A DNA stretch of 64,000 nucleotides, from contig OY720344.1 of NCBI GenBank assembly GCA_963082975.1, positions 67,236,546 to 67,300,545 of the forward strand. The letters run 5' to 3'. Both the position numbers and the translations under genes were made by a program. The stretch is from Labia minor (taxonomy: Eukaryota; Arthropoda; Insecta; Dermaptera; Spongiphoridae). The notes under the pieces are model-generated. The model did not search any database, was not told the DNA's origin, and was given only the letters and a program-made list of their open reading frames with translations. Positions 6,542-45,987 of the stretch are shown piece after piece; the stretch's first letter is position 1, and every line of letters begins with the position of its first letter.

Positions 6542-6545
6542 ATAG
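6542..6545. repeat. Target-site duplication ATAG (left)
   Basis: ATAG directly abuts the 3' LTR end and recurs at 16259-16262 directly after the 5' LTR. Four-base duplications are normal for Ty3/Gypsy integrases. Confidence 0.8.
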
Positions 6546-7477
6546 TGTAAGGCCGTGGTACTTACTTGCACAAAATATTAGAAGGGAGGAACGAGACCAT
6601 GCCACCTAGATGCGACGATCGTGTCAAATTAATCATTCAAAACGTCATTTAATTTAATTCAAATACAATTTATTTAATTAAGTCACAATTATTAATTAAG
6701 TTTGAATTATTAATATATTCACATACAATTTATTTAATCAATTTACAATTTATTTAATTAATTTTGAATCGTGAATTTATTCAAATACAATTTATTCAAG
6801 TAAGTTACAATTTATCATTTAAGTTTGAATTATTAATTTATTCACATACAATTTATTTAATCAAGTTACAATTTATTTAATTAATTTTGAATCGTGAATT
6901 TATTCAAATACAATTTATTCAAGTAAGTTACAATTTATCATTTAAGTTTGAATTATTAATTTATTCCAATACAATTTATTTAATTAAGTTACACTTTATT
7001 TAATTAATTCTGAATTATAAATTTGTTCAAATACATTTTATGTAATTAAATTTGTTCTACTCACACTCTACTGGCCAGTAACATATCTTCACTATACAGA
7101 TCAAGATTAACATAAACATTTTATAATTAATTATCAATAATTCATTCACTTAGCTTCTAGCACATCAGCTCGTCAGTACATCACTGCCCGGCCTCCTTCC
7201 ACCTCACCTTGAGCCTCCCACTCCTTCCCCTTTGGCCGCCCCCATCTCGTCGTGTTCCTCACCCCTCCTCTATCTCTTATCGTCCATCTCACTTCCACTT
7301 ACTTGTATTCTTTCTTTACTTATGTAACTATTATCTTTGATGGGTGAACAGCGATAATATATTCTCACGCAACTATTATTTAGCCAGCTAATGCATTCTC
7401 GAGGGGCCCTTGATGGGTGAACAGTTATAATCTATTCTCAACATATTACACTGATAATATATTCTCAATATATTACA
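6546..7477 (-). repeat. 3' LTR of the Gypsy element (932 bp)
   Basis: Near-identical to 15330-16258. On the minus strand it runs from TGTAATATATTG to GGCCTTACA. The U5-side half contains tandem AT-rich units of about 123 bp built on ACAATTTATTYAA and GAATCGTGAATTTATTC (about 6640-7050). Confidence 0.95.
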
Positions 7478-7490
7478 CTCCCCTACCCTT
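7478..7490 (-). other. Polypurine tract
   Basis: On the minus strand AAGGGTAGGGGAG abuts the 3' LTR start (TGTAA). This is the expected place and composition for the plus-strand primer of reverse transcription. Confidence 0.8.
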
Positions 7491-7538
7491 TAAAAAAAGA
7501 TTGTTTCGAGGTAAAGATTTTTCCCGAAACAATCCTTT

Positions 7539-8951
7539 TCAACAGTTCGACCCCTCCTCTGTTTTGTCTATGTCCACATCACTTCCCAGTTGATTCTGCA
7601 GCTCCCCGGCCTCCTTCCTCCTCCGTGCACACTTCTTCCACCAAAGATACACCACTAGTCCACACAGACTCACTAAAACTGTTCCACCACCGGTTCCGCC
7701 AGCGATAAGACGTTGTTTCCTTTTGCTCTGTATCAACCTCGCCTCCTCTCGCAACCTGGATAATGGAACACTCATCGAGGTCCTTCCCAACTCAGCTCTT
7801 ATCGACTCCAAACTTTTCAGTCCCTCCGCCATTATCGTGTTCTCCTTACACGATGTCTCTGTTATTAGGGGTTCTTCTTTCTGGCCGGTAAATATCGCTG
7901 GAGTTGTTATCACGATTCTCGATTGACCCGCGCTCCTAGACATCAACAGATGTTGATTTGTATGTAGCTGACATCCCTCCGGAACGGTAACGATGCCTTG
8001 TTGATGTAGTTGAATATCATCGAACCTAGGTTCGCTACTGGTACGGCAACTTTGTCGGGCCACTTGAGGTCGTGATATACTATAATACCAATGGGAACCA
8101 GAATATGATGGCTCCCAAAAATCAGTAGCCGCCCCTAATAACACTTCCCATGAGCAGTAACTATCTAGATGCTCCGCCTGTTTGAAGAAGAGGGCGCTGA
8201 CACAACTGAGTTGGGATCGGACTACGAGTGGAATAGGCTGTTGACACACCATAGGCTCCCGTCCCCGGCAGTTGTCCATATATCTATGTTCTAGCGTGGT
8301 ATATTTTTGGTGGTCATGCGTTACTAGGATCCACGGGGAAATTTTCACTAACTTGGTTCTCACTCCCCCCCGAGCTGTAGGCACCACATGAACGAAATAT
8401 ACTGTTCCTGACTGGGATACTGTCTTCAACGGAAGTGAGATCACGAAACGGATAGCGTCCCTGACACTATACACTTTCACTAATGAGATGTCATAGTACT
8501 TATAAATAAATCGTAATTCTAGCGGGGTCAGCCATTCCTGTCCTTCGGGGAGTTTCTTATTTATATCTATCATTAATTCTAATAACATTTTTGGGTTGAT
8601 CAATCGCGCATCGAGGCGTCCCGCTGCCGCCGATTGAACAATCCCGAGGACATCCTCTAACCAGTTTCGAACTGACGTCAGTGCTTGCCCCAGGCGTCGT
8701 GTCTTAGTCATTAATTCTAACGCTTCTTGAAAAAATTTTTCGGCTGCGTTTTGCCGTCCAAGTGTCGAATTAAAATTTTGGTCTATCAAAGTGGCTAATT
8801 CCAATAATGTTCTAGCATGTTGTTTAATCAAGTCGAAATTTTGATTAGTTTTATGGTCGAGTTGGTCTAATGCTGTGATTTGATCATCGAAGTAATGACT
8901 CATTTGTTCATTGACTTCATTTAAATTTTGTAATCTGGTATTCAATTCCAC
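7539..8951 (-). pseudogene. env: env, downstream (membrane-anchored) part
   Basis: Errantivirus-type envelope, the part that follows the furin-like site. The frame encodes 470 residues from 8951 and is open further upstream to the G-run at 8997-9002, where a fusion-peptide-like hydrophobic segment lies. Visible traits are a long helical N-terminal part, a cysteine-rich middle (CRGR, CQQP, CVSA, CSWE), one transmembrane helix at about residues 420-438 (VLVSLCGLVVYLWW) and a basic then acidic cytoplasmic tail. It resembles the F-like Env of insect Gypsy viruses. It is out of frame with the upstream part, so this copy cannot make full Env by plain translation. Confidence 0.8.
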
Positions 8952-8986
8952 CAGATCTTCATTATCTAAAGTTCCAAAAATAAATT

Positions 8987-9334
8987 TTAAAACGTGCCCC
9001 CCGCGTCCACCAGACCACGTCGACTTCGCGCCGGGGGTAGCATTTCACTCAAATGTGAAATAATCCCCTCCGTCATCTCGAAACTGGTCTTAATATATGA
9101 CATATCCTCCTTAAAATCTATTGTCTTCAAAGGTTCTCCTTCTAAGAGAGCGTATCGGTCATCCTGTAATTTCTCCAGAGACTCCCTGATGACCGATACC
9201 TTCTCTTGAATCTGTTTCACGTCGACTTCCGTTATAATCTGCCACTCATCTCCCGTAATTATCACGTCGTCGACTGGTTCAAAATAAACTCCCAGTGGCA
9301 TTATCTCCTCCCTCTCCCTCGCCTGCTTCCCCAT
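8987..9334 (-). pseudogene. env: env, upstream part with furin-like site
   Basis: 115 codons from ATG at 9334. Near its end RSRR (residues 103-106) is followed by GLVDAGG, the arrangement of a furin site next to a fusion peptide in errantivirus and baculovirus F-type envelopes. The frame then hits TAA at 8987-8989. The shift relative to the rest of env lies at a run of six G (minus strand; 8997-9002), a likely single-base indel. No signal peptide follows the ATG. A pyrimidine-rich tract ending in CAG (AG at 9352-9353, minus strand) just upstream looks like a splice acceptor, which fits env expression from a spliced RNA that supplies the leader. Confidence 0.75.
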
Positions 9335-9376
9335 CGCATCGTTAGTTTGGCCTGTGAGAGAAGAAACAAAGAAACA

Positions 9377-9913
9377 TTACTCCCCTTTTTTGTGGAAATT
9401 CCAAATGGTTCTCTTTTTAGGACGCCCTACCCCTCTCTTTTTTGGTGGGACCCCAACGGGTGGTTTACGAGTATTAGTATTCTCTGTCGCCCCGGCTGTT
9501 GTGGGAGTGCTTGTCCTCGGGCTACTGGTACTGGGTTTGGCCTCCATGCCATCCCTAACCGAGGCATCTATATTGGGTGATGTGTGAGGAGGGTGTGCAT
9601 TCTGGTCACTAGTGTTGGGTGATTTCTCCGGGCTAGCTGGGGAATCTATATCCTCCCACCCCTCCTCCCTTTGACCTTCTTCATCCTGCAAAGCTTGTCC
9701 TGTTTCCACTTGAGTATTGTGCTCACCGGTCTCTGTCTCCTGTCGCCAAGACTCTGAATCTCCTCCGTCAAACCTGAGGGATTCCTCTTCCCCTAGTTCT
9801 CCTGCTATGTCTATTTCATCTTGGCTTTCTAAGTTGATTACAGGGGGTGGTTCCTTCTCCCCTTCTGGCTCGATCTCCTCTATCTCGCTGGGTCTTGCGG
9901 AAGAATCTAGTTG
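9377..9913 (-). CDS. Open frame after the pol stop: acidic/proline-rich tail with an AT-hook
   Basis: Immediately after the pol UGA (9914-9916) the same frame is open for 178 codons and ends at TAA 9377-9379. The peptide is acidic and Ser/Pro/Thr-rich, then ends with a basic segment containing GRPKKR (about residue 165), an AT-hook core. The stop is followed by CAA CUA, which matches the CAR-YYA context known to promote readthrough in tobamovirus-type signals. Two readings are possible: a programmed C-terminal extension of Pol, or a nonsense mutation that cut a longer Pol. No good internal ATG precedes most of the frame, so independent translation is less likely. Confidence 0.55.
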   Translation of the reverse strand, partial: QLDSSARPSEIEEIEPEGEKEPPPVINLESQDEIDIAGELGEEESLRFDGGDSESWRQETETGEHNTQVETGQALQDEEGQREEGWEDIDSPASPEKSPNTSDQNAHPPHTSPNIDASVRDGMEAKPSTSSPRTSTPTTAGATENTNTRKPPVGVPPKKRGVGRPKKRTIWNFHKKGE

Positions 9914-12900
9914 TCATACTCCATTCCACTTGGGCTGGGAGTCATTCCATTCTCGCCACGGACTCAATGAAATGTTCTCTTTCCCTGACCATACATCGTC
10001 ATCCGCATCGCTCTCCCAAATCCGGTTTTTCTCCTCTTCCTCATCAGTTGGCGTTGGGGTTCCTATGGCCGCTGGTGTGTATACGTGTACTCTCACCGGG
10101 TAGTCGGGGGTTAGCTCTTTTAGCCACTTCTTGACTTGTACCCATTTGAGGCCGTCCATTCCGCATCCTAAGCGCGGAACCGCCAATGCTGGGATTCCTA
10201 CTTCGGTCGCTTTCAGTAGTAGGTTCTTGAGTGTCATTTTCACGTTTTCAGGGCGCGGCTTGTCACTCGCTTTTGTTTTCGTGACACAATGAAGTATCAC
10301 TCTATCTGGGTGGTATTGCACTAGGATATCTCCGATGGTTGGTTCTGGGATCTTTTCGCAAGGGTGCCTCGGATAGGTGTCTCGTATAGTTTTTGCAACA
10401 CCTTGGGACATGCGTAAGTCGGCCGATATACAATGAGCTAGGGCGTAATTTTTGGGTGCCATCAACATATCTCCCGTGTGTTCATATACACGGTTCACTC
10501 CGCGGCGTTCTATATTGGCTGGTTTCAAACGATTCACATGTATGTTGACAATCTTAGTGGGACTCCACCACACTCCATATACCACTTCGGAATTTTTTGT
10601 CGCTATTGTGTAGGGGCCCTTCCAAGGCTTATAGAATTTCCGAGCTTCTGACTCTTTCAGAACGGGGTTGTATACATATACTTCATCCCCTACCTCGAAC
10701 CTTCGGAATTTTCGATGTTTATTTGCCTGTTTCCTGCTCGACTGTAACCTGGCTTCCGACTGATTTATCGCTTGTTGTTGTAGATGTTCTATCCGGTCAC
10801 ACAATTCGTTTAAATATGCCCATTTATCCGGCTCTTCTTGCTGATGTTGATTTTTTCTAGTGATATTAATGTCTATTTCTCGGCCGAATGCTAGCACATT
10901 AGGCGAAAACCCAGTGCTAGCATGGGGTCCGCTCCGATAAGCCATTAATGCGTATGGCAACCAAATGTCCCAGTCTTTACCATCTGTCCTCACCCACGGT
11001 CGAAGCATCTCGTTTAATGTTCTATGTACCCTTTCCACTCGACCGTTCGATTCTGGATGATAGGCTGTTGTTTGTACCTTCTTTATTCCTAAACGTTGGC
11101 ATAGTTCCAGGAATATTTTAGAGGTGAAATTTCTCCCCTGATCGGTTAAGATGATTTCTGGGATCCCATGCCGGCTTATTACTTCTTCCGTGAGCGCACG
11201 GATCACTCTGGCCGCTGTTTGGTTCGGCATGGGTATCGCTTCCAAGTATCTGGAGTAGTGGTCTAGAACCGTCAAAAGGTATCTATTACCTCGGGTGGAC
11301 TTCGGGAATTCCACGACATCTAGTGCTATCATTTGGAAGGGCCTTCTGGGGATCTCATGTGGTTGAACGGGAGCTCGAAGTCCAGTTGGCGACTTCATCT
11401 GGGTACATATACTACACTGTTTCACCCAGGACTCTACGTCCCGTTCCATTCCCTCCCAGAAATATTGTCGCTGGATTCGTGATAAGGTTCCCTGAACCCC
11501 TCTATGCCCTGCCGTGGGTCTATCATGGTTTTCTTCCAATATCATGGGCACCTTTTCTCGGGGTACCATTAAACGGGTTTGGTGATCATCTACTACGTAC
11601 AAACACCCATCGGATCTTGCTTGGGCTTTGCCGCTCCGTGCCCAGCGCTGACAGTCCTCATCTTGATCTTGTGATTCGCGCCATTCCTCTTCGGTCGCTG
11701 TGGTTCTCAAGAAAGTTCGAATCGTGTGCACCGTCGACTCAGGTCCCTCCTCACTAGCTTTCACCCGACTGAGAGCATCCGCGTTCCGATGTAACTTCCC
11801 CGGACGGTGTTCTACTGTATAATCATATTCCGCCAGTCGCAGTGCCCATCGTGTCAACCGCTGTGAAGGATCATGCAGACTTAACATCCATTTCAAGGCC
11901 GCGTGGTCAGTTACCAGTTGAAATTTCCTCCCATATAGGTAACACCGAAATTGTTGCGTCGCCCACACTACAGCAAGTAGTTCTTTTTCCGTTACTGTGT
12001 AGTTACTTTCGGCCTTGTTCAAAGTTCGACTGGCATAAGCAATCGGCCTTTCATATCCGTCTCGACGCTGTGATAACACTGCGCCTAAAGCCTCGTTCGA
12101 GGCGTCTGTGGCCAAGATAAACGGCAGTGTGAAATCTGGATACACGAGTACGGTATCACTACACAGGAATTTTGTGAGAGAAAGAAATGCTTGTTCCTGT
12201 TCCTTCCCCCATTGGAATTTCTGGTCTTTCTTCGTGAGGGTCGTCAATGGCTTCGCAATGTTAGCATATTCAGGGATAAACCTCCTGTACCACCCTGAAA
12301 GTCCCAGAAACTGTTGTATCTCTTTCACGTTTTTTGGTTGTGGGTAGTTGTTAATTGCTTCCACTGTTTTTGGATCGGGTCGGACTCCATCTTTCCCCAC
12401 CCGATGCCCCAGGTACCCAACCTCTCCCACCGCGAAATGACATTTTTCTAATTGGATTTTCAATCTTGCCTGTCGAAGGCACTCGAATACGTCTCGCAAC
12501 CTTCTTTGATGTTCTGAAAATGTTGTACCAAATACTACCACATCATCTAGATATACGAAACATTCACTTCCTTTAATTCCGGCCAACACTCGATCCATCA
12601 GGCGTTGGAAAGTAGCTGGGGCCCCGGCTAAACCGAACGGCATTCTCGCGTACTCAAAATGCCCCATAAAAGTAGGGAATGTGGTTTTCTCTCTATCTTC
12701 TGGAGCTATCTGAATTTGGTGGTACCCACTTGCCAGGTCTAGGGTAGTGAAATATTGTGCATTCCCTAAGGATTCTAGCGTCTCCGTGATATTAGGTATC
12801 GGATACACCGGAATCTTCGTTACACTATTCAGAGCTCGGTAATCAGTACAGAATCGATATTTAACCCTCCCGTCTGTACTCTTTTTCGGTACTACTAGTG

Positions 12901-14239
12901 CTGACCATGGCGAATCTGATTCTATACTTACCCCTTCTTCTAGCATCTTCCCGATCTGTTTTTCTACTTCGGGTCTCATCGCATGTGGCACTCTATAGGG
13001 TCGTTTAAAGATGGGAGCTGATCCTTCAGTGACAATTTTATGCTTCACACCTATCGCACAACCCAATCCCGTTGTTCCTTCTTCATACATCAATGAAGCA
13101 TATTCTTCCAATAGCTCGAACATCTGATGTTGTTGGTTTCTAGGCAGGTGGGTTAACTTTTCCTTGAACTTAGGTATCCATTGACGTTTGGTATCTTGTT
13201 CAATCACCTGCACTCGGCAAATACAACTTTGATCTAATATTGATATCGTGCTGGCTTTGGCAAGTTGCTGACGACGATCTATCACTGCCTCACTACTAGA
13301 TAAATTTATTACCCTGACCGGTACACTTCCTTTCTCGACTCTCACACAAGTCCGCCCTACCCGCAACGCTGGTTGCGCTAATATATCCGGTTCTACTACC
13401 ATTTCTGACCCATCTTTTACATTAGCTACCTCAGCCCAGACCACTACCTCGGACCACGCCGGAATTACTTTGTTCTGTTTTGCTCTTACGACCTCCTCTT
13501 GCACTTCTTCTATCTCGGTGACAGGCGGAATGCCACTAATGGCTCCAAATTCCGTGTCATCTTTTCCAGTGCTAACTACTCTTGCTCTCACGACCTCCTC
13601 TTGCACTTCTTCTATCCCGGTGACAGGCGGAATTCCACTAATGGCTCCAAATTCCGTGTCATCATGTTCAGTGCTAACTACTCCTCTAGGTCGTTCCAGG
13701 GGAATGATCTCCAAATTACTCCCATCCCCAACACCCCTTCTCCTCCTCCCGTTACCTCGTGCTGTGCCGTTCCAACGGCACTCTCTTTTCTGCACATCAA
13801 TCACCGCTCCCAAAGCGGTCAAAACATCCATTCCCAGGAGCCCATCTCCCGCTATTTTAACATCGCAAATATTGAACGGATGCATGATTCTTCTCTTCGT
13901 CACCAGTATCGGAAGCGTTTGTTGACCACTAATGGGCAACAGATCTCCCGTAACTCCGCATGCGTTTCGTGGATATCCCATTACAGGGATATCAGGAATA
14001 GGGGCTTTTAAGATCGACACTTCCGACCCCGTATCCACTAACATTTCTAACTCTCGTCCCCCTATTCTCAGTCTCACTCTAGTAGCCTTATCCGCGTTGG
14101 TGTTGATTGCGGTTACCAGGAGAGATCCGAATCTCTTCGGACTCACTCTCGGGGCGGAGGGAGTCCGAACTCTTTTGGGGCCACTTGCGTATTGATGTTT
14201 TCTTCGGCCACACACTTTACCTGGGGAGGTCGGGGACAC
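9914..14239 (-). CDS. pol: Gypsy pol polyprotein with C-terminal TARG1-like macro domain
   Basis: 1,441 codons counted from a GTG at 14239; the true start is by frameshift or readthrough from gag. Domains: aspartic protease (VDTGS at 68-72, GLLGMD at 133-138); a 34-residue tandem duplication at about 187-253; reverse transcriptase (YLDD at 563-566); RNase H (TDAS at 711-714, D at 779); integrase (HHCC: H905, H912, C942, C945; D974, D1033, E1069 with 35 residues between the last two); a GPY module at about 1208-1210. A macro domain follows at about 1252-1390. It shows GDMLMAPK, AHCISADLRM, VTKTKASDKP and PRLGCGMD; K1321 and D1362 align with the catalytic lysine and aspartate of human TARG1. 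The reading frame is intact throughout, unlike gag and env. Confidence 0.92.
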   Translation of the reverse strand: MSPTSPGKVCGRRKHQYASGPKRVRTPSAPRVSPKRFGSLLVTAINTNADKATRVRLRIGGRELEMLVDTGSEVSILKAPIPDIPVMGYPRNACGVTGDLLPISGQQTLPILVTKRRIMHPFNICDVKIAGDGLLGMDVLTALGAVIDVQKRECRWNGTARGNGRRRRGVGDGSNLEIIPLERPRGVVSTEHDDTEFGAISGIPPVTGIEEVQEEVVRARVVSTGKDDTEFGAISGIPPVTEIEEVQEEVVRAKQNKVIPAWSEVVVWAEVANVKDGSEMVVEPDILAQPALRVGRTCVRVEKGSVPVRVINLSSSEAVIDRRQQLAKASTISILDQSCICRVQVIEQDTKRQWIPKFKEKLTHLPRNQQHQMFELLEEYASLMYEEGTTGLGCAIGVKHKIVTEGSAPIFKRPYRVPHAMRPEVEKQIGKMLEEGVSIESDSPWSALVVPKKSTDGRVKYRFCTDYRALNSVTKIPVYPIPNITETLESLGNAQYFTTLDLASGYHQIQIAPEDREKTTFPTFMGHFEYARMPFGLAGAPATFQRLMDRVLAGIKGSECFVYLDDVVVFGTTFSEHQRRLRDVFECLRQARLKIQLEKCHFAVGEVGYLGHRVGKDGVRPDPKTVEAINNYPQPKNVKEIQQFLGLSGWYRRFIPEYANIAKPLTTLTKKDQKFQWGKEQEQAFLSLTKFLCSDTVLVYPDFTLPFILATDASNEALGAVLSQRRDGYERPIAYASRTLNKAESNYTVTEKELLAVVWATQQFRCYLYGRKFQLVTDHAALKWMLSLHDPSQRLTRWALRLAEYDYTVEHRPGKLHRNADALSRVKASEEGPESTVHTIRTFLRTTATEEEWRESQDQDEDCQRWARSGKAQARSDGCLYVVDDHQTRLMVPREKVPMILEENHDRPTAGHRGVQGTLSRIQRQYFWEGMERDVESWVKQCSICTQMKSPTGLRAPVQPHEIPRRPFQMIALDVVEFPKSTRGNRYLLTVLDHYSRYLEAIPMPNQTAARVIRALTEEVISRHGIPEIILTDQGRNFTSKIFLELCQRLGIKKVQTTAYHPESNGRVERVHRTLNEMLRPWVRTDGKDWDIWLPYALMAYRSGPHASTGFSPNVLAFGREIDINITRKNQHQQEEPDKWAYLNELCDRIEHLQQQAINQSEARLQSSRKQANKHRKFRRFEVGDEVYVYNPVLKESEARKFYKPWKGPYTIATKNSEVVYGVWWSPTKIVNIHVNRLKPANIERRGVNRVYEHTGDMLMAPKNYALAHCISADLRMSQGVAKTIRDTYPRHPCEKIPEPTIGDILVQYHPDRVILHCVTKTKASDKPRPENVKMTLKNLLLKATEVGIPALAVPRLGCGMDGLKWVQVKKWLKELTPDYPVRVHVYTPAAIGTPTPTDEEEEKNRIWESDADDDVWSGKENISLSPWREWNDSQPKWNGV
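10070..10486 (-). other. Macro domain (TARG1/OARD1-like) within pol
   Basis: This part of pol encodes about 139 residues with the hallmarks of the TARG1 family, which removes ADP-ribose from acidic side chains and hydrolyses O-acetyl-ADP-ribose. From the GD pair that opens the domain to the catalytic Lys is 64 residues, and from that Lys to the catalytic Asp is 41 residues, the same as in human TARG1 by my count (K84, D125). No stop or indel interrupts it, so selection has probably acted on it within the element. Activity is an inference from conserved residues. Confidence 0.85.
13486..13690 (-). repeat. 102-bp tandem duplication inside pol
   Basis: Two copies of a 34-codon unit (DDTEFGAISGIPPVT core) sit between the protease and RT regions. 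The copies differ by only a few bases, so the duplication is young, and it keeps the frame. Confidence 0.85.
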
Positions 14240-15061
14240 TGCCTTATAAAGTGCTCCCTACTCCCTATAGCACCCTTCACGGGGTTTAATGCTCCTCTTT
14301 TTCTCTGTACCCCCAATGGTACTGTTCGGTTCCCTCTTTATGGGGCACATCCGAGCCATGTGTCCCTCCCGATTACAATTGTAACACCTGCCCCTAATCG
14401 CAGGGTTACTCGTGAACCGTGTGGTGTCTCTACGTCTCTCTGGGTAGGTAAAGCGGGTTTCCGGGACATTCCTTCCCTCTTTTTCCCACCGTTGTGCAAT
14501 TTGTAAGGCCCCTTCCTCAGTCGTGGGGGCTGATACTCGGGCTTGTCTACCCAGTTCGCCTCTGAGCCCTTCTAGAAACCGAGCCAATAGGGTAATTCCT
14601 GTACCCGTCCAATCTATCCCGGCCATCGCATCTCGCAATCGATCTAAATAATCCGCTGCACTCTCTTGCGGAGTTTGACCCATAGTCAGGACCGTCCTCA
14701 TCCTTTGGGTGGCCGTGTCTTCCGGTTTGAACCTCGCTCTCAGTTGTTCCTTCACCCCTTCCCAAGTGATATCTCGGGGTAAATTTCGGACGACTCTCAA
14801 CGCCGTTCCCTCCAGCTTCCATTCCAAGACCTCCCTCCTCTGGTCCTCGGGTATGTTACCCATTTTGGCCAGGTGCTCAAATTTATTGAGGAATAGGTCA
14901 ATTTGCCCTGTCCCCGTCCAGGGCGACATCCCCTCCACTATTCCCCAATTGGGGTCTCTAGTGACGCGTACCTCCACGGGGCCAGCCGCCCCAGTCAGAT
15001 TTAATAACTGGGCCTGCAATTGTCCCAGTTGTTGTTCCAGATTATGTATCTGTTCCTCCAT
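14143..15061 (-). pseudogene. gag: gag (Retrotrans_gag type) with a break in the second zinc knuckle
   Basis: ATG at 15061. The frame gives 267 residues and stops at TAG 14258-14260. It has an N-terminal coiled coil (about 1-24), a gag core (WTGTGQIDLFLNKFE to about residue 195) and a complete CCHC knuckle CYNCNREGHMARMC (226-239). The remains of a second knuckle, REHFIRQCP, lie in the +1 frame at about 14225-14260, and that frame ends at TGA 14143-14145, overlapping pol. A loss of about five bases inside the second knuckle would explain why gag now shares the pol frame with a TAG between. The ancestral layout would then be a gag/pol overlap with -1 frameshifting. Confidence 0.8.
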
Positions 15062-15310
15062 TTTTCGTGGGGGGTGCTTTCAACTTTGATGTTGAGCAAA
15101 CACCAGGTCTAGGGTTTAATTTTACCGTACTCTCCCTCACTTAAATACTCCCAAATTTCCGTATCTCTGCTCTCAGAATTTTACTTTATCTTTGGTTTGA
15201 AAGGAATTAAACTATTAACAAAATATTCCCATTTTTTAATTAAAATTTTTTATCGATTCAATCTTTAAAATTTAGCTTAATTAGTTTACTCTCTACCCCT
15301 AAACCCTCAA

Positions 15311-15327
15311 CCCCACACCTGACACCA
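15311..15327 (-). other. Primer binding site, tRNA-Leu type
   Basis: Two bases inside the 5' LTR the minus strand reads TGGTGTCAGGTGTGGGG. This is complementary to a tRNA 3' end CCCCACACCTGACACCA, which looks like a leucine tRNA. The identity of the tRNA is inferred from general tRNA knowledge. Confidence 0.75.
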
Positions 15328-15329
15328 TT

Positions 15330-16258
15330 TGTAAGGCCGTGGTACTTACTTGCACAAAATATTAGAAGGGAGGAACGAGACCATGCCACCTAGATGCGAC
15401 GATCGTGTCAAATTAATTCAAAACGTCATTTAATTTAATTCAAATACAATTTATTTAATTAAGTCACAATTATTAATTAAGTTTGAATTATTAATATATT
15501 CACATACAATTTATTTAATCAATTTACAATTTATTTAATTAATTTTGAATCGTGAATTTATTCAAATACAATTTATTCAAGTAAGTTACAATTTATCATT
15601 TAAGTTTGAATTATTAATTTATTCACATACAATTTATTTAATCAAGTTACAATTTATTTAATTAATTTTGAATCGTGAATTTATTCAAATACAATTTATT
15701 CAAGTAAGTTACAATTTATCATTTAAGTTTGAATTATTAATTTATTCCAATACAATTTATTTAATTAAGTTACACTTTATTTAATTAATTCTGAATTATA
15801 AATTTGTTCAAATACATTTTATGTAATTAAATTTGTTCTACTCACACTCTACTGGTCAGTAACATATCTTCACTATACAGATCAAGATTAACATAAACAT
15901 TTTATAATTAATTATCGATAATTCATTCACTTAGCTTCTAGCACATCAGCTCGTCAGTACATCACTGCCCGGCCTCCTTCCACCTCACCTTGAGCCTCCC
16001 ACTCCTTCCCCTTTGGCCGCCCCCATCTCGTCGTGTTCCTCACCCCTCCTCTATCTCTTATCGTCCATCTCACTTCCACTTACTTGTATTCTTTCTTTAC
16101 TTATGTAACTATTATCTTTGATGGGTGAACAGCGATAATATATTCTCACGCAACTATTATTTAGCCAGCTAATGCATTCTCGAGGGGCCCTTGATGGGTG
16201 AACAGTTATAATCTATTCTCAACATATTACACTGATAATATATTCTCAATATATTACA
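15330..16258 (-). repeat. 5' LTR of the Gypsy element (929 bp)
   Basis: Near-identical to 6546-7477; the 3-bp length difference comes from an ATC present once more in the other copy. It holds the same 123-bp AT-rich tandem units (about 15425-15835) and a C-rich stretch at about 15960-16075. The element promoter should lie here, on the minus strand. Confidence 0.95.
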
Positions 16259-16262
16259 ATAG
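16259..16262. repeat. Target-site duplication ATAG (right)
   Basis: Pairs with 6542-6545. Confidence 0.8.
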
Positions 16263-29600: not shown

Positions 29601-32600
29601 TTACAAGCTAATTATTGTAAGTTTAAAATTAAATTTATAAAATTCTTAAAAGAAAAGTAAAATTGAAATCATTAGTGAAATATTTTATTATTACTGTATG
29701 GTATTTACAAATTATATTAAATTATTTATTATTTATTACAGATTTTAATAAAGATGAAACACTTCTTGAAAGAAGTAGTAAAGATATTTCTGTAGTATTT
29801 ACAAGAGAACTTATGCATCTACTTAATGAAAAACCTGAGAAGAAAATGTTAATTACTAAAAAAATTAATCGATTTTATTTTCAAAATAAAACAATTACCT
29901 TAAACGAATATCCGAAAATAATCGAGGTTTATAATCAATTAATTAATTTTATAATTTAAAATTTATTTTATTAATGTGTGTATATTTACAGTTCTTGTCA
30001 GATTTGCAAATAATTGTTGGTATGGCAAAGTTAGCCAAGACTATTGTTAAAATAGATTCTAAAAATTCTATATACTTTTATATGTTTGATTATGATGGAG
30101 GATTAGGATATCATAAGAATAAATTTTTACTTGGAAAATTTCCTGTAATTCATGGAATTTGTCACGGAGATAGTTTAGGATATATATTTAAAATGGAAGA
30201 TACAGAACCAAAATCTCTTTCCACTGATTATTATATTATGGAAAAAATGATTGACGTTTTTACTAACTTTGCGATTGACGGGTGAGTTTAGATTTTTTTT
30301 ATATTTTACTTTTTAAATATAAGTCTTAATGATAAAAAAATATGAAACAAAACAAAAGAAAAAAAGAAAATGATTAAGAGTTAAGTAACAAAAAATTTCG
30401 GTGCTATTTGTAACAATAATTAGGACAAGGAAGAATTCGTTCTATTTAAAATATTAGGTCATAAATTATTAAAAAGAAAATTATGAAATTAATAATTATC
30501 TATATACAATAATAAATATAATATAATTATATTTAGGAAAATGATTTACGAATATTTTTTTAAAAATAAAATTGAGATTAGACATTATAGGAGAAATTGT
30601 ACGAAATCGAATTAAGAAAAAAATTCAAGTATTGGGTTAAGCGGACGATTTAATTATAATATGAGATTAGTTAAAATATATGTATCAGAAAGGATTAGAA
30701 GTATTACAGAAAATCATATCATATACTAAAATACTTAGAAATTGAAAAAGTAGAAAAATTGGTTGGTTGGTTGTGTAACGCCGAGATTGAATAATAGAGG
30801 AAAAGTCGTACAAGCACAAATGGACATACCCGTGCCATCTATCGGAATCAATATGATTGACTAATGGATTGGAGGGGAGATAGCCAAGTGGTAGGGCGAA
30901 GTTAAAAAGAAAGATATTCTCGCCTGTCCAATGGATGAAATATTATCGTCTCGCTATCGAATTAATTAATGTATTGCATCTTACCGAAAATTCTACCGTA
31001 AACGTTTCTCTCCAGTAGTGTCTGTAAGAATAAAATATATATATTGTTGTGATATTTACCTGCAATAAATACCGCCCTTATCAGATATCGTACCGGTGAG
31101 TGTGAATTATAATATATATCTTTATGGAAAACATTTACATAATTCCCGTACCTGTTAGTAATGAGTTATTACAGTTTTTAGGTTACGGCCAAGTTTTTAG
31201 GTTACGGCCAAGTTTTTAGGTTACGGCCAAGTTTTTAGGTTACGGCCAAGTTTTTAGGTTACGGCCAAGTTTTAGGATACCGCCAGTTCTAGGTTATCAC
31301 AAGTTTCTAGGCTACCGCAAGTTTCCGGTTAGCTGCTGTTTTAGACTACCGCAAGTTCAGGTTACGTGCAAGTTTTAAGTCATCGCCGTTTCCGGATATC
31401 GCTTTTCGTTATGCCTTTTTGTCTCTAGTTGGAAAACGAAGAAAATACACCTACTTCCTATATCATCATAGCATTACCGTATCGTACTGACTTTTTCTAT
31501 TAATAACGTCTATCTATTAAGTGTCTCGTATTAAAGGTTATAAAATAAATAAAAACCAGTAGATCCCCCCGTTGAGTCTCTATCCAGCAACCTAAGTTGA
31601 GCTTAGGCTATTTGTGTAACTGAAATTGTACAATAAACATATGTGTACCGTAATATGAATCAAAGTTTGTAAATATATCTTGTTTATTAATTGATATCTA
31701 AATATAATAAAATTTCTTTCTTTCTTTTTTTATATAAATTATTCTTATATAATTTCCCTCTCTTATGTTATTTATTTAGTACCGATTGTACAATTAAGGT
31801 CGCATGAGTATATGGCGCCCGAACAGGGACGCTGGTTTTTGTTTTTTTATACATAAATATATGACTGTTCAGCTGGGACATTGATTTTTCATTATACATA
31901 AATATATGGTCCCCAAACAGCTGGTACATTGGTTTTTCTTTTTATTGATTATTAATCACATAAATATATCGATATTAATTATTAATATAGTTAAAAATAA
32001 ACTAATTAATAAAATAAAATGAAAATAAGTATAAAATCATCTAAGTATATAAAATTAAAGAAATGAACTTGTAATTGATTTTGGATGATATAATTTATTT
32101 GGAGGTGTTTTTTTATATATATTTAATATAGATTAAATTTAAGTATACCTATAATTATCGTTTGTTCTTAGAAAATATAACTAAGACACAGTAATTCATT
32201 TTGTATTTATAAACATAATAATATTAATAATAAGCTTGACAATTTTGAATATTAATATTATTCCATTCTAAAGTAATTATATTGAAAATAATTATTTTTA
32301 TCTTTGAAGGTTTATATAATTGTTATAAATAAGTTTATGATTTATTTAAAAATAATTCAGAGATAATTTATTTAGTTTTTTTATAAATAATATAAATGGT
32401 TTCAAATTTCGTTTAGTTATATATAATAAATTTATTATTGAATAAATAATTTAATAACTGTTTGTCTGAAGTATATAATATTATAAATCATATAATAATT
32501 TGTTGTTGTATTTGATTATTTATTTATTTTGTAGTGTAATATTTTTTTGTTTTCTTGTATAATTATTTTGTACTAGGTTGCTGGTTAGAATAGAATTCCC

Positions 32601-35600
32601 TTTAACGATGGCGGAAGAATTAATAATAAATTTAGAAATTCTGCAATCAGAAAGAGAAGATTTGTTCTCCCTGATGACAGACCTCCACAGTAGATTTCGA
32701 TCAATAATACCGGATAACGTAGAGGATTATCGTGCACAATTTGACAGATTATCGGAGTACGAGACAAGGTTTTTGAAGTTAACGGCGGAAATTAGAGTCA
32801 TTAATGTTAAAGTTAAAGATCGAAAATTAAGATTAGATACCGGACAGGTTCAGAATAGATTTTTCGAGTTGTTGGATGGAGCCAAGAGTAAATATCTAGC
32901 TGCCAAGGAAGCCAAGATGGTTACTATTCCGACGGGAACTGTTTCGAGAACTTCGGCTGAGGGACAGTTACCTAAAATACAACTTCCTACCTTCACAGGT
33001 AATATCGAGGACTGGTCATCATTTTATTCTCTGTTTCAGTCGCTAGTCGATAGTGACCCCAACATACCAGATATTAAAAAGTTTCAATATTTGAGAACTT
33101 GTTTGAGAGACGATGCTGCCGCAATTATTTCTGCGTATGCCCTTGAGCCCCAAAACTATGTACTGGCTCTAGAAGCATTAAAAGCTAGATACCAGAATAA
33201 ACGAAGATTGGCTAGCTTATATTTATCTCGAATTACCGAATTTCTACCGCTAACAAATTCATCCCTTAGTAGCCTTCAACGATTTCTCAGTGTACATGTC
33301 AGCAATATGAGTGCTTTAATGTCACTAAATTTACCGGATGTGGGAGATTTTATTAAATTACAGTTAGCATTAAATAACTTAGGTTCTGGCACGAGGAGAG
33401 CGTTCGAGGACAAGCAGTCGTCGACAACCATACCGACTTATGAGTCACTCATAGAGTTTGTAACGGAGCGTAGCCGTGTAGAGGAGCTCATGAAAATAGA
33501 TAACATTGGTCGTAGTCGTGCTATTAGTAAATCAGATTCTAGAGGTCGAGTTTCCTTTCCGTCCCGAGTTCCTAAAGTGATGCCTGTACAGCCTCGAGAT
33601 CCGACCCCACGTTGTTACGGTTGTGGGAGACCAGGTGAGACCACGATGTCCTGTCCGGATTGCTGTTTTAAACGAAAACAGGAGTTGGGAGTAAAGACCT
33701 CTCCTAGTAAATGCCGTGGTCCTAACACCAATAATACCTTTCCTCCTTCTGTGAAGATTTCCGTACCGCCACCAACCAATAATACCTTACCGCCCTCTGC
33801 GAAGATTTCCGTACCGCCACCAACCAATAATACCTTACCGCCCTCTGTGAAGATTTCCGTGTCGCCACCAACCGATAATACCTCACTGCCTACGGGGAAA
33901 ACTTCAATACCGTTGTCGTTGGACAAAACTGTCTCGCTCTTTCGTGAACCTAAAGTGTCACCCTTGGAGAAGAGTGATGATATTCCGATCTCATCAATGG
34001 AGAATGAGCCTACCTGTATGAATGTCAGGATGCTATCTTGGCATATACCCGTACGACGAGCCATTAATGAGAAATGCAGATCACGTGTCGCATATGCACT
34101 TTATGATTCTGGTGCAACTATGTGTTTTATCGGAGATGAGGGGTTAAACAAGTTTGCCCAAGAACCTCGCCCACACCCCGTTCTTATCGAACAGTTCTCG
34201 GTTATGACTGTAGAGGGAGTCTCTGCAATAGTTAATTGTTACTATGTCATTTCTATCATAGTTCAGGATAGGAAATACGATCTGTGCCTACATTATCTTC
34301 CTAACTTACCGAGTGACATCCTATTAGGATTGGACTTCATTTCGGAGGCAGGCATATGCACCAATGCCCGAACTAATCAGTGGTGGTTTGCCGATTGTCC
34401 TGATGTATTATATAAGTTTGTCGGCCCAAGGATTGATTCATCTTTATCCTCAAATTGTGGATTGCAGATATTGAATAGGAACCAAAGGTCAATTTTAGAT
34501 AGTGTTGTACAGGAAGGAGTACAGTCACTCCAGGATTCTCCCGGATTAACTACTCGGATAACCCACTCTATCGATGTAAGGGGATCACCGCCTATTAAGC
34601 AGAGAGCTTATCAATATTCCCCCAAAGTGTTGGAAGCACTGTATGCCGAACTAGATCGGATGTTAGAGGAAAATACCGTTGAACCCAGCCATGCTGCTTG
34701 GGCATCTCCGGTGGTTATGGTGAGGAAACCTGATGGATCCTACCGTCCGTGTCTAGATTTCCGAAAAATTAACGCGGTTACCGTTAAGGATTCTTATCCT
34801 ATGCCAAATTTATCGTCGATCTTAGACAGTTTTCGTCAAGCCAAGTATTTTTCTAAACTTGATCTGAAGCAAGCTTTCTTACAAGTACCTCTTTCCGATG
34901 AAGAGTCACGTAACATTACGTCTTTTACAGTACCGGGTCGTGGTTTATTCCGTTTTCGAGTCATGCCGTTTGGCCTCTGTAACTCTCCCGCTACCTTCCA
35001 GAGGTTAGTAGATGATATTTTCGGTCCCGAATTGTGGCCATACGTAGTGGCTTATCTAGATGATGTGTTAATATGCACTCCGACTTTCGAGTTACATTGC
35101 CAGATGCTGAGAGAAGTATTTAAAAGATTAAAGAATTCGGGTCTACGAATTAATTTAGAGAAGTGTAGCTTTGGCTGCCAAGAAGTAGCATATCTAGGTT
35201 ACCGGATTAACGCAGATGGGTTAATAGCAGACCCTGGTAAGATAAAACCTGTCGTGGAATTTCCTACTCCAGAAAATATCACAGAACTTCGGCGATTTTT
35301 AGGAATGGCCGGTTGGTATCGGCGGTTTGTTCCAAACTTTTCCGTTATTATCGCTCCTCTTACCAAATTATTACGTAAGAAAACCCCATGGTGCTGGGAA
35401 AAAGAACAAGTAGATGCGTTCGAAGTGTTGAAACGCCATTTAACGTCTACTCCTATTTTAGCTCGCCCAAATTTCGACCTTCCCTTTACCTTGCAAACGG
35501 ACGCAAGTCAAGTAGGGTTAGGAGCCGTTTTGACTCAGGTGCAAGACGGCGAAGAGAAAGTTATTACTTATTGTTCTCGTTCTCTAACCCCCGCCGAAAG

Positions 35601-38600
35601 AAACTACTCAGTCACAGAGAAAGAGTGTTTAGCTGTGATTTTCGCTATCGAGAAGAACCGCCATTATATAGAGGGTTCACAATTTACCGTCATAACTGAC
35701 CACCATTGTTTGAAGTGGTTATTGAACTTAAAAGAACCTTCGGGTAGATTAGCCCGATGGGCCCTAAAGCTCCAACCGTACAATTTTACCATCCAATACC
35801 GTAAGGGAAAATACAATTGTATCGCAGATGCCCTATCCCGTATCGATAAATTCCAAGCTATGGTAATAACCCCCACAGATACAGCTTCATCAGATAATAA
35901 AGATGAGTGGTATAATAGAAAACTCTATAGAGTTAAACAGAATCCGCAAAAACATCCCGATTGGAGAGTTGAGAATAATCAACTCTATTATCTGAGAAAA
36001 GAATTCCTTAAGGGTGAATTGGAAGACCCTAGTGAAGACTGGAAGTTAGTTGTTCCGTGGAAATTAAGACAATCCATTATGAAACAATACCATGAGGATG
36101 TTCAAGCTGGTCATCTAGGTATTGACAAAACACATTGGCGAATTGGTCGACTTTATTACTGGCCCGGAGTATATCAGGATGTCGTTAGATATGTGAAGCA
36201 ATGTCACACTTGTCAGAGGACTAAGCCTTTAAATACTACTCCCGTGGGTATAATGTACCCCAGATACCTTACCTCTCCGTGGGACGTGGTTTCCACTGAT
36301 TTGATGGGACCTTTTCCTAGAAGTTCCCATGGCAATATTTACCTTCTCGTATTCCAAGATATCTTTACGAAATGGGTTGAATTAGTACCTATTCGACGGG
36401 CTACCTCTGACGTTATAGTAGATAAATTCCGTTCCGTTATACTGAATCGTTTCGGTGCCCCGATTGTTCTGATTACCGATAATGCAAAAAACTATGTCAG
36501 CAAAGTTGTGAAGGAAATTGCTACAGTCTATAATATTGAAATTCGGACAACTCCTTTATATCATTCCCAAGCAAACCCGACAGAGCGAGCTAACCGCAAT
36601 GTGAGACAATTAATAATTTCATATTTAAAGGAGAATCACCAACATTGGGATAAATATATCGGTGAGTTCCAGTTCGCATTGAATTCCGTTAAGCAGGAAT
36701 CTACAAAGTTTTCGCCTGCTTTTCTTAATTTTGGTAGAGAGTTAAGGCCTCTAGCCCAACTAAGTTCTAATAAAGTACCTGTTGTACCGAATACTATACC
36801 GCCTCAAAAACACAAACATCGTTGGTGTGAGCGTGTGACGAAACTTAAAGAACTTTACCATATGGTCGAGGAAAACCTTCTAAAGGCTAACTTACGGCAA
36901 AGTCAGAGGTATAATTTGAGACGAAGAGATAGTACATTTCGTGTCGGTGACAAAGTGCTTAGGCGCTCTTACCATCTCTCATCAGCGGGTAATAAAACTT
37001 CTGCTAAGCTATACCCAAAATTTGAAGGTCCCTTTGTAATAGATTGGATAAGCCCAGGAGGAACCTGTAAACTGCGTTCATTGAATAATGAGTTCGCCGG
37101 TTCATGGCATCCTTCCGTCTTGAAGTTTTACCAAGAATCCCGTACTGATTAAAATCAAACAATTCCGTACCGGTCCATTCCGACAAAACTTTCTGTACGA
37201 CGTTCCCTCTGGAAGGGGGTATGTAACGCCGAGATTGAATAATAGAGGAAAAGTCGTACAAGCACAAATGGACATACCCGTGCCATCTATCGGAATCAAT
37301 ATGATTGACTAATGGATTGGAGGGGAGATAGCCAAGTGGTAGGGCGAAGTTAAAAAGAAAGATATTCTCGCCTGTCCAATGGATGAAATATTATCGTCTC
37401 GCTATCGAATTAATTAATGTATTGCATCTTACCGAAAATTCTACCGTAAACGTTTCTCTCCAGTAGTGTCTGTAAGAATAAAATATATATATTGTTGTGA
37501 TATTTACCTGCAATAAATACCGCCCTTATCAGATATCGTACCGGTGAGTGTGAATTATAATATATATCTTTATGGAAAACATTTACATAATTCCCGTACC
37601 TGTTAGTAATGAGTTATTACAGTTTTTAGGTTACGGCCAAGTTTTTAGGTTACGGCCAAGTTTTTAGGTTACGGCCAAGTTTTTAGGTTACGGCCAAGTT
37701 TTAGGATACCGCCAGTTCTAGGTTATCACAAGTTTCTAGGCTACCGCAAGTTTCCGGTTAGCTGCTGTTTTAGACTACCGCAAGTTCAGGTTACGTGCAA
37801 GTTTTAAGTCATCGCCGTTTCCGGATATCGCTTTTCGTTATGCCTTTTTGTCTCTAGTTGGAAAACGAAGAAAATACACCTACTTCCTATATCATCATAG
37901 CATTACCGTATCGTACTGACTTTTTCTATTAATAACGTCTATCTATTAAGTGTCTCGTATTAAAGGTTATAAAATAAATAAAAACCAGTAGATCCCCCCG
38001 TTGAGTCTCTATCCAGCAACCTAAGTTGAGCTTAGGCTATTTGTGTAACTGAAATTGTACAATAAACATATGTGTACCGTAATATGAATCAAAGTTTGTA
38101 AATATATCTTGTTTATTAATTGATATCTAAATATAATAAAATTTCTTTCTTTCTTTTTTTATATAAATTATTCTTATATAATTTCCCTCTCTTATGTTAT
38201 TTATTTAGTACCGATTGTACAATTAAGGTCGCATGAGTATAGTTGGTTCTGTAATCACGAAGGATAATAATATTCTAGAAGAATTTAAATTTAGGTTACA
38301 ATCAGGCAGCGCATGCTATTATGCAGTAACTTATTTAGTCAAAATTATTATCCTAGGGAATTAAAATATATAAAAAATAATTGTGTTACTATGGGTGTGA
38401 GTCGGGGTCTATGATCCTGGGAGACGAGAGTAGATTTAAACTATTTTAAATAGGATTCTTTGCAGCATTTATGGAGCAAAGAAAGATGAGGTGGAGACTG
38501 TATAATGAGGAATTGCATGACTTTTATGCCTCTATAACAGAGAGTACTAAAAGCAAGAAGGTTGCAATGGGCAGGACATGAGGCAAGAATTGGAGATGAA

Positions 38601-43910: not shown

Positions 43911-44571
43911 GTCCTAAGTGATACATAGTATTTTGTTTTTAGTTTAGTATGTATAAAATATAGATTTTCATTTATTTGATTATAACATTCATTTCCTTTT
44001 CGTGTTATTTTTTAATTTATTTAAATTAATTAAATATTATATATATATATATTGTTTATGTTATAATAGAGTAGAATATTCCTTAACATTTATTTTGATA
44101 TTCGTTTTTATTATCATTTATCGTTTATATTGAATAATTTTTATTATAATGAAATTTAGCGAAATCCAAAGCTTGAGACTTGAGCTATTTTATAAGACTA
44201 AAACTAACTTAATCAATTGATTTCCCCAAAACCACATAAAACTTCAAATAAATTAAAAAAAAAAATTTTACGATATATAAATACGATTATGACCAAGTCA
44301 TAATAAATGGTGTACATATACAATGAAAATTACTTTTGATTTAATGTTCTCTGATTTGACTTTAATTTACATTGATATTCTCCTAAGATTAGAAGAAACT
44401 TATAAATTGAGTCCTACCCCAATCTAATTCATTTACTAATTTATCCAAGTTGTATGAGACACTTAGATTTCAAAGTTGGTATAGAAAAATTTAAAATAGA
44501 GTTTATAGTTATATGAAAATACAAATAGTGTTTATATATTGAAAATATATGAAAATGAATATTTATTTATA
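43911..44571. other. AT-rich DNA, no gene seen
   Basis: No recognisable feature. The last 11 bases (44561-44571) form the left target duplication of the LINE that follows. Confidence 0.45.
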
Positions 44572-45876
44572 TATAAGGAGGCTCTTAACCCCTTCGCCAA
44601 AAAGGGCTTACCCAGAAGTCCACCAGGAGGACCCAAGGAAAATCCACCCATTCTTGATGCTGACTGCGTTCGTGCCAGCCCACTAGCTACAGAAAACAAG
44701 TTTGTGTCTGCACCTAGCACGAGTCATTTTTCTTTACCTCTGGAGAGACACCGGTCTTCCTCCTTAAATGAAGTTAGTGAAAACACCGTGTCCAGACACA
44801 CTGATCCTCTGCTTTCATTTGAAACTATATCTACTTCGGAGTCCAGTATTTCTACGCCAAACACTGAGTGGTCAGTGATCGACTCAAGAAAAAGGACGTT
44901 ACAAGCCTCCAACTCGCCTCCTCAAAAAACCCTTAAACAATCCAAACTCGAAACTTACTGGCTTAATAAGCCATCCCCGCTTCCCACAGCTAACCAATTT
45001 GAAATTCTACCTACAGAGGAGAGTAGCCCCTCCCCACCTACAATCATAAACTCCAAACCAAAACCACCTCCAATTTTTGTCGTTGGAGTTCAACTCATAC
45101 AACCACTTAGAGCCTTACTCAATAACATTGTCCCAGGTTCATATACTCTAAAATGCACCAGAGCTGAGGAGGTTAAAATTCAACCCAGCTGCCCGGAAAG
45201 TTATAGAAAAATAATCAAAGCCCTCAAAGATAAAAACACCAACTTTCACACTTACCAACTAAAGGAAGAGAGACCCTATAGAGTCATATTGAGAAATATT
45301 CACCCCTCCACTAATACTCAAGAAATAAAGGATGCTCTACTGGAACTGGGACACGAAGCAAAGAATATCTCGAACATCCGGCATAGATCTACAAAAGTCG
45401 GACTACCACTCTTCTCCATAGACCTAAAACTCAAGAGCAACAACAAACTTATATATGGGATAAAAAATATTTTAAACACCATCGTCATCTTTGAATCTCC
45501 TTACCCCAAGCGAGATATCGTGCAATGTCACCGGTGCCAACAATTCGGGCATACCAAGAACTTTTGCTTCCGTTCCCCTAAATGTGTTCGGTGTGGAAAC
45601 AGCCACGATTCAAAAATGTGTCCTAAAGGAGTCAATGCTCCAGCCATTAAATGCGCTAATTGTGGTAACGACCATCCAGCTAATTACAGGGGATGCAGCG
45701 CTTATAAAGATCTCAAACAGAAGATGTATCCTACTCTCAGACCCAAGGTCCCCGCAAATAATCCCGTAACCAACACAGAAGTTACCCCCAAACACAACAA
45801 CTCTCCATCAAACCCATCTCCAACATACGCCCAGATAACCCAATCTAGGCACCAAACTGTACCAGGACATCCATGA
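44572..45876 (+). CDS. LINE ORF1 (Gag-like, three CCHC zinc knuckles)
   Basis: Frame open from flanking DNA (ATG at 44539 lies outside the element) to TGA at 45874. The N-terminal half is Ser/Pro-rich. The middle (about residues 175-325 from 44539) is a PRE/C2HC-like fold preceding the knuckles. The end has three knuckles: CHRCQQFGHTKNFC, CVRCGNSHDSKMC and CANCGNDHPANYRGC. It should bind the element RNA in an ORF1-type particle. The native start is probably lost by 5' truncation. Confidence 0.8.
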   Translation, partial: YKEALNPFAKKGLPRSPPGGPKENPPILDADCVRASPLATENKFVSAPSTSHFSLPLERHRSSSLNEVSENTVSRHTDPLLSFETISTSESSISTPNTEWSVIDSRKRTLQASNSPPQKTLKQSKLETYWLNKPSPLPTANQFEILPTEESSPSPPTIINSKPKPPPIFVVGVQLIQPLRALLNNIVPGSYTLKCTRAEEVKIQPSCPESYRKIIKALKDKNTNFHTYQLKEERPYRVILRNIHPSTNTQEIKDALLELGHEAKNISNIRHRSTKVGLPLFSIDLKLKSNNKLIYGIKNILNTIVIFESPYPKRDIVQCHRCQQFGHTKNFCFRSPKCVRCGNSHDSKMCPKGVNAPAIKCANCGNDHPANYRGCSAYKDLKQKMYPTLRPKVPANNPVTNTEVTPKHNNSPSNPSPTYAQITQSRHQTVPGHP

Positions 45877-45987
45877 TATTACCCTATCGAATTTCCTGTC
45901 GGAATTTAAAACAATGTTCAATTAACTGATTCACCAAAATAGTATGATTTTAAGCATGCTTACCTCCGTAGTTAATAAGCTTACAAA

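Follow-up and report, generated by a model that had tools for sequence, protein, structure and literature searches.

Why should the Pol protein of a retroelement end in a domain that resembles an ADP-ribosyl hydrolase? The question is raised by a complete provirus bounded by long terminal repeats (LTRs), located at 6546-16258 on the minus strand of a stretch of 64,000 nucleotides from Labia minor (contig OY720344.1), which is called the window here. The analysis covers one copy of the element, within this window. PDB sequence search, Pfam, alignment and structure modelling support the assignment of a TARG1-like macro domain with a complete predicted catalytic pair, fused to the Pol of this LTR element. 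The corresponding features are the following:

9914..14239, minus strand: pol open reading frame (ORF) of 1441 codons, with protease, reverse transcriptase (RT), RNase H, integrase, macro domain and acidic tail
10073..10492, minus strand: TARG1-like macro domain, Pol residues 1250-1389 (140 residues)
10277..10279, minus strand: codon AAA of K1321, paired with K84 of TARG1
10154..10156, minus strand: codon GAC of D1362, paired with D125 of TARG1
9917..10072, minus strand: acidic tail at the C-terminus of Pol, with low confidence in the model (mean predicted local distance difference test, pLDDT, of 59 at model residues 221-230 and of 34-37 beyond)

The original prediction, made from the letters of the DNA, had placed a macro domain at 10070..10486 in the pol frame, after the integrase. 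The location was right, and the whole domain reaches six bases further at its upper end. Past the integrase C-terminus the frame indeed continues without a stop through the domain and on into the short acidic tail. In the PDB sequence search the macro domain matched TARG1 best (E-value 1.3e-19), which rules out a chance resemblance of motifs, and the bacterial DarG came next (1.3e-6). The Pfam profile PF01661 (Macro), a check proposed beforehand, gave a significant match as well (E 1.3e-7, 32 bits versus a cut-off of 22). In the alignment with TARG1 the identity is about 32%, with no gaps between the ends. The four motifs that had drawn attention to the region (GDMLMAPK, AHCISADLRM, VTKTKASDKP and PRLGCGMD) are all present, and the spacings of 64 residues from the Asp of GD to the Lys and of 41 from the Lys to the Asp hold, so that K1321 and D1362, named in advance as the predicted catalytic residues, fall on K84 and D125 of TARG1. 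We take these two numbers to be those of the full-length human protein, which is consistent with the chain ranges in the PDB matches. Lys84 and residue 125 are given as the residues of the TARG1 mechanism in a passage of PMC7050489, which prints residue 125 as Glu where the alignment has Asp.

Conservation of the domain was considered against its relatives. Among 18 of the 19 OARD1 proteins (P0002, an incomplete gene model, was left out), 53 columns are invariant, and the Pol domain keeps 29 of them, including the catalytic pair. The catalytic Lys is kept in 21/21 animal proteins and in 107/108 loci, a count biased by the fact that this Lys sits in one of the two patterns that retrieved the loci; the Asp is kept likewise. 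Structure modelling guided by 23 aligned OARD1 proteins gave a confident model, and with these OARD1 rows the closest solved structure to the Pol domain is TARG1, by sequence and by fold. The likeness to TARG1 (OARD1, C6orf130; ALC1-like class) therefore concerns the whole domain, with a gapless alignment and the same spacing of the catalytic Lys and Asp; the Pol version differs in being about 32% identical and in standing at the end of a retroelement Pol, where an acidic tail follows it.

Other identities for the region were discarded. A DarG antitoxin does not fit the NCBIfam DarG equivalog score (42.2 bits versus a cut-off of 250), and a decayed domain is ruled out by the open frame and the retained catalytic pair. 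No second macro domain was detected in the window, where the best other tblastn match of a 261-residue piece had an E-value of 0.16.

The element that carries this domain comprises the following parts besides pol:

6546..7477, minus strand: 3' LTR, with TG...CA ends and an internal 123-bp tandem array
15330..16258, minus strand: 5' LTR, found by alignment to the 3' LTR
6542..6545, no strand: left copy of the target-site duplication ATAG, in the flanking sequence
16259..16262, no strand: right copy of the target-site duplication ATAG, in the flanking sequence
14258..15061, minus strand: gag, with a zinc knuckle (zf-CCHC, E 4e-7) and Retrotrans_gag (E 1.6e-6)
8987..9334, minus strand: env, first frame, with Baculo_F below its cut-off (E 0.0021, 17.2 bits versus 24.1)
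7539..8951, minus strand: env, second frame, with Baculo_F at E 2.5e-19; its open frame reaches up to 9044

An alignment of the two LTRs over 932 bp shows 99.46% identity, with one gap opening and two mismatches; together with the flanking ATAG duplication, this points to a recent insertion. When pieces of pol were searched apart, Pfam matches were obtained for RVP (1.7e-5), RVT_1 (2.9e-34) and RT_RNaseH (2.8e-42), and the integrase core and zinc domain were clear (rve, E 4e-20; Integrase_H2C2, E 3.2e-12). The integrase GPY module that had been described just before the macro domain gave a weaker result, a match to Integrase_p58_C of 22.8 bits, under the cut-off of 27. The succession of gag and pol, the order protease-RT-RNase H-integrase, the two LTRs with a 4-bp duplication and the Baculo_F-type env, here split, are all features of errantiviruses. 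Judged by its parts, the element is an envelope-carrying Ty3/Gypsy element, errantivirus-like, and it differs from errantiviruses in its extra macro domain and in a further open frame after pol. Elements of the envelope-carrying Ty3/Gypsy kind are described across metazoans, and as particularly abundant in insects, in a passage of PMC13172572. No related RT was found when the viral-contig collection was scanned with this RT and with an RT pair.

Some further details of this copy were observed. Both LTRs contain an AT-rich tandem array (6651-7041 and 15432-15822) in which a 123-bp unit is repeated about 3.2 times, and in pol a 102-bp tandem duplication (94%) at 13480-13683 on the minus strand, between protease and RT, yields a repeated 34-residue unit. 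The env is split over two reading frames (8951-9044, minus strand) just past a furin-like SRRG site, seen by eye. Also by eye, a pyrimidine tract followed by CAG at about 9352-9378 on the minus strand, preceding the env start codon at 9334, resembles the 3' splice site that a subgenomic env mRNA would use.

The further open frame begins directly past the Pol stop:

9380..9913, minus strand: frame of 178 codons in the same frame as pol, acidic, a possible readthrough extension

The stop is TGA followed by CAACTA, a context which resembles the CARYYA readthrough signal. In none of the other five frames over 9380-9913 does an opening exceed 82 codons, and the probability of a 178-codon opening by chance, given the base composition, is 1.8e-4. 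Like the Pol tail that precedes it, the frame is acidic. It terminates in KKRGVGRPKKRT, which we take to be an AT-hook-like motif, and it ends just ahead of the pyrimidine tract and CAG. The Pfam scan of this 178-codon frame gave no match. Either the Pol stop is read through or an early stop is present in this copy.

Regarding the age and origin of the domain, its base composition is nearly that of the remaining pol, and for this reason the domain has probably been resident in the element for a long time. The original prediction considered it a captured host hydrolase. The TARG1-like domain is borne out; capture from the host is not, since among the matches listed the identity to animal OARD1 and to bacterial and viral loci is 25-37%, the branch is very long and the trees disagree. 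A search with a two-row alignment (the Pol domain and human TARG1) listed the best 120 of 1341 proteins, which were largely vertebrate OARD1, some of them without a name, plus Acropora and Mytilus. The OARD1-alignment search yielded 47 viral-contig loci and 64 prokaryote-genome loci. A first, quick tree, in which a TARG1-like ORF on an IMG/VR contig (L006, 512-1033) grouped with animal OARD1, included 21 of the 120 listed animal proteins and 108 of the 111 loci (three were short or had a stop), reduced to 51 loci once near-copies were removed, and a second included 15 animal proteins and 28 loci. No insect OARD1 was among the rows. The branch of the Pol domain measured 3.6-5.8 changes per column across the two trees. 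Its nearest rows were bacterial in the first tree, and in the second its nearest row by path, with a branch of 5.8, was an animal OARD1. In the second tree the approximately unbiased test returned p 0.03 for animals and Pol domain together and 0.151 for animals alone, values subject to long-branch effects and to the absence of insect OARD1 rows. This weakly disfavours a grouping with animal OARD1 and, with the same caveats, speaks against simple host capture.

Another possible donor is an insect RNA virus, as suggested by the modelled fold. In a viral structure library, searched with the predicted fold, the VP8 of Kadipiro virus ranked second, and proteins of Frankliniella-associated negev-like and flavi-like viruses ranked third and sixth (E 2.3e-14 to 3.8e-12). 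The flavi-like match superposes cleanly (3.0 Å over 148 columns, 29% identity), whereas the superpositions of Kadipiro VP8 and the negev-like protein have root-mean-square deviations of 19.5 and 15.3 over 205-206 columns. These insect-associated proteins are thus similar to the Pol domain in predicted fold and differ in belonging to RNA viruses and not to retroelements, at 22-29% identity. A macro domain is given for aphid flavi-like viruses in a figure legend of PMC7154061.

The fusion was also looked for elsewhere. Protein searches, which reach only relatives sharing exact words, gave 338 candidates when an 821-residue piece of Pol was the query and the macro region was scored, and 17 when the domain alone was used, none of them at E 0.001; given that reach, finding no annotated fusion carries little weight. 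The viral contigs searched with the Pol domain alone gave no match. The RT, RNase H and integrase pieces showed no match below E 1 against the 111 TARG1-like loci, and therefore the flanks covered around these loci contain no second fusion. A literature search of open-licence papers returned, among the matches listed, none in which the Pol of a Ty3/Gypsy element ends in a macro domain. The original prediction knew of no macro domain fused to an LTR-element Pol, and this needs correcting, since fish epsilon-like endogenous retroviruses carry macro-domain ORFs (Basta et al. 2009, as cited in a passage of PMC4977317). They resemble the present case as retroelements that acquired a macro domain and differ in being vertebrate retroviruses with additional ORFs rather than a Ty3/Gypsy Pol fusion. 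That macro domains are already known in fish retroviruses and insect RNA viruses lowers the novelty of the Pol fusion.

Concerning function, we consider it fairly probable that this is a recent errantivirus-like Ty3/Gypsy provirus with a Pol-borne ADP-ribosyl hydrolase of the ALC1-like class (TARG1-type) acting on ADP-ribose at integration. The basis of this explanation is the fusion, the domain, its residues and the young LTR structure. TARG1 is described in the relevant passage of PMC7050489 as interacting with PARP1 and as taking ADP-ribose off proteins and DNA ends, and by analogy with this biochemistry the Pol domain would hydrolyse ADP-ribose. Its packaging, its cleavage from the integrase, and its place and target are steps that we infer. 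The macro domain would be made as part of Pol translation and, being part of Pol, could be delivered with the integrase: it would be packaged along with RT and integrase and travel with the pre-integration complex into the nucleus, whether still joined to the integrase or after release by the protease. In the nucleus, the Lys/Asp pair could strip the ADP-ribose that a host PARP has set on proteins of the element, on chromatin or on DNA ends, and integration or gap repair would be kept unblocked.

Several points weigh against this explanation. Insects are said in a passage of PMC10221186 to be without most vertebrate PARPs. The other 24 of the 53 OARD1-invariant columns differ in the Pol domain. 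The TARG1-like fold expected by the original prediction appeared in the OARD1-aligned model, and the model without that alignment was poor (mean pLDDT 54.6); with the single-sequence model TARG1 still ranked first (E 0.009), and both TARG1 and DarG missed E 0.001. There is one copy only, and no second one showing conservation. Finally, the title of one paper places PARP2 at LINE-1 integration sites, a precedent for PARP at retroelement insertion; in that title PARP2 helps insertion, which makes the need to erase its mark doubtful.

Alternatively, the domain could be a reader of ADP-ribose and not an eraser. Chromoviruses carry a chromodomain after the integrase, and in the same position the macro domain, directly after the integrase C-terminus, would tether the integrase to PARP-marked chromatin or breaks and choose the insertion site, and the AT-hook-like motif that closes the readthrough frame would serve as a second tether. 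Macro domains do bind ADP-ribose, and both the motif downstream and the LINE-1 title agree with this account. Nevertheless, the hydrolase Lys/Asp pair, superfluous for a pure reader, is kept, which is why an eraser is favoured; tethering, second tether included, is a doubtful though serious candidate. The original prediction also offered a role against PARP-based defence. Such counter-defence would oppose cytoplasmic antiviral ADP-ribosylation, as proposed for alphaviruses and coronaviruses, with a domain possibly from an insect RNA virus and not from the host. The ranks of the three viral proteins in the structure library and the macro domain of aphid flavi-like viruses are in its favour, but only one of the three superposes well, and the same passage of PMC10221186 adds to the scarcity of insect PARPs that insect-specific alphaviruses lost the activity. 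We regard this role as unlikely, and because of that scarcity it is placed third, after nuclear action at the integration complex and chromatin tethering. A captured gene piece retained by chance, without function, would agree with the single copy and with the two single-sequence protein queries that gave no domain relative at E 0.001. This is very improbable, as an open frame with the catalytic pair at about 32% identity to TARG1, with Pol-like base composition, points to long selected residence.

A wider speculation, to which we give little credence, joins erasing and reading: the integrase would act as a chromatin editor, in which the macro domain, with a readthrough acidic AT-hook arm, binds PARP-marked or AT-rich chromatin and erases ADP-ribose at the insertion site. 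If true, a chromatin-editing integrase in a lineage of envelope-carrying Gypsy elements would be an undescribed kind of integration control. RNA viruses use ADP-ribose erasers as tools, and a catalytically complete eraser joined to an integrase would link ADP-ribosylation with integration or anti-retroelement defence, in animals with possibly few PARPs. The isolated macro domain is small and directly testable.

As for the rest of the window, Rfam and transfer RNA scans of its 64 kb gave no matches. A second retroelement lies at 32563-37149 on the plus strand, with a 1529-codon open stretch that has DUF1759 near its beginning and in which RT, RNase H and integrase are Gypsy-like in make-up. Moreover, a non-LTR retrotransposon is present at 44509-48651 on the plus strand, where a PRE_C2HC protein is followed by endonuclease and RT in open frames.
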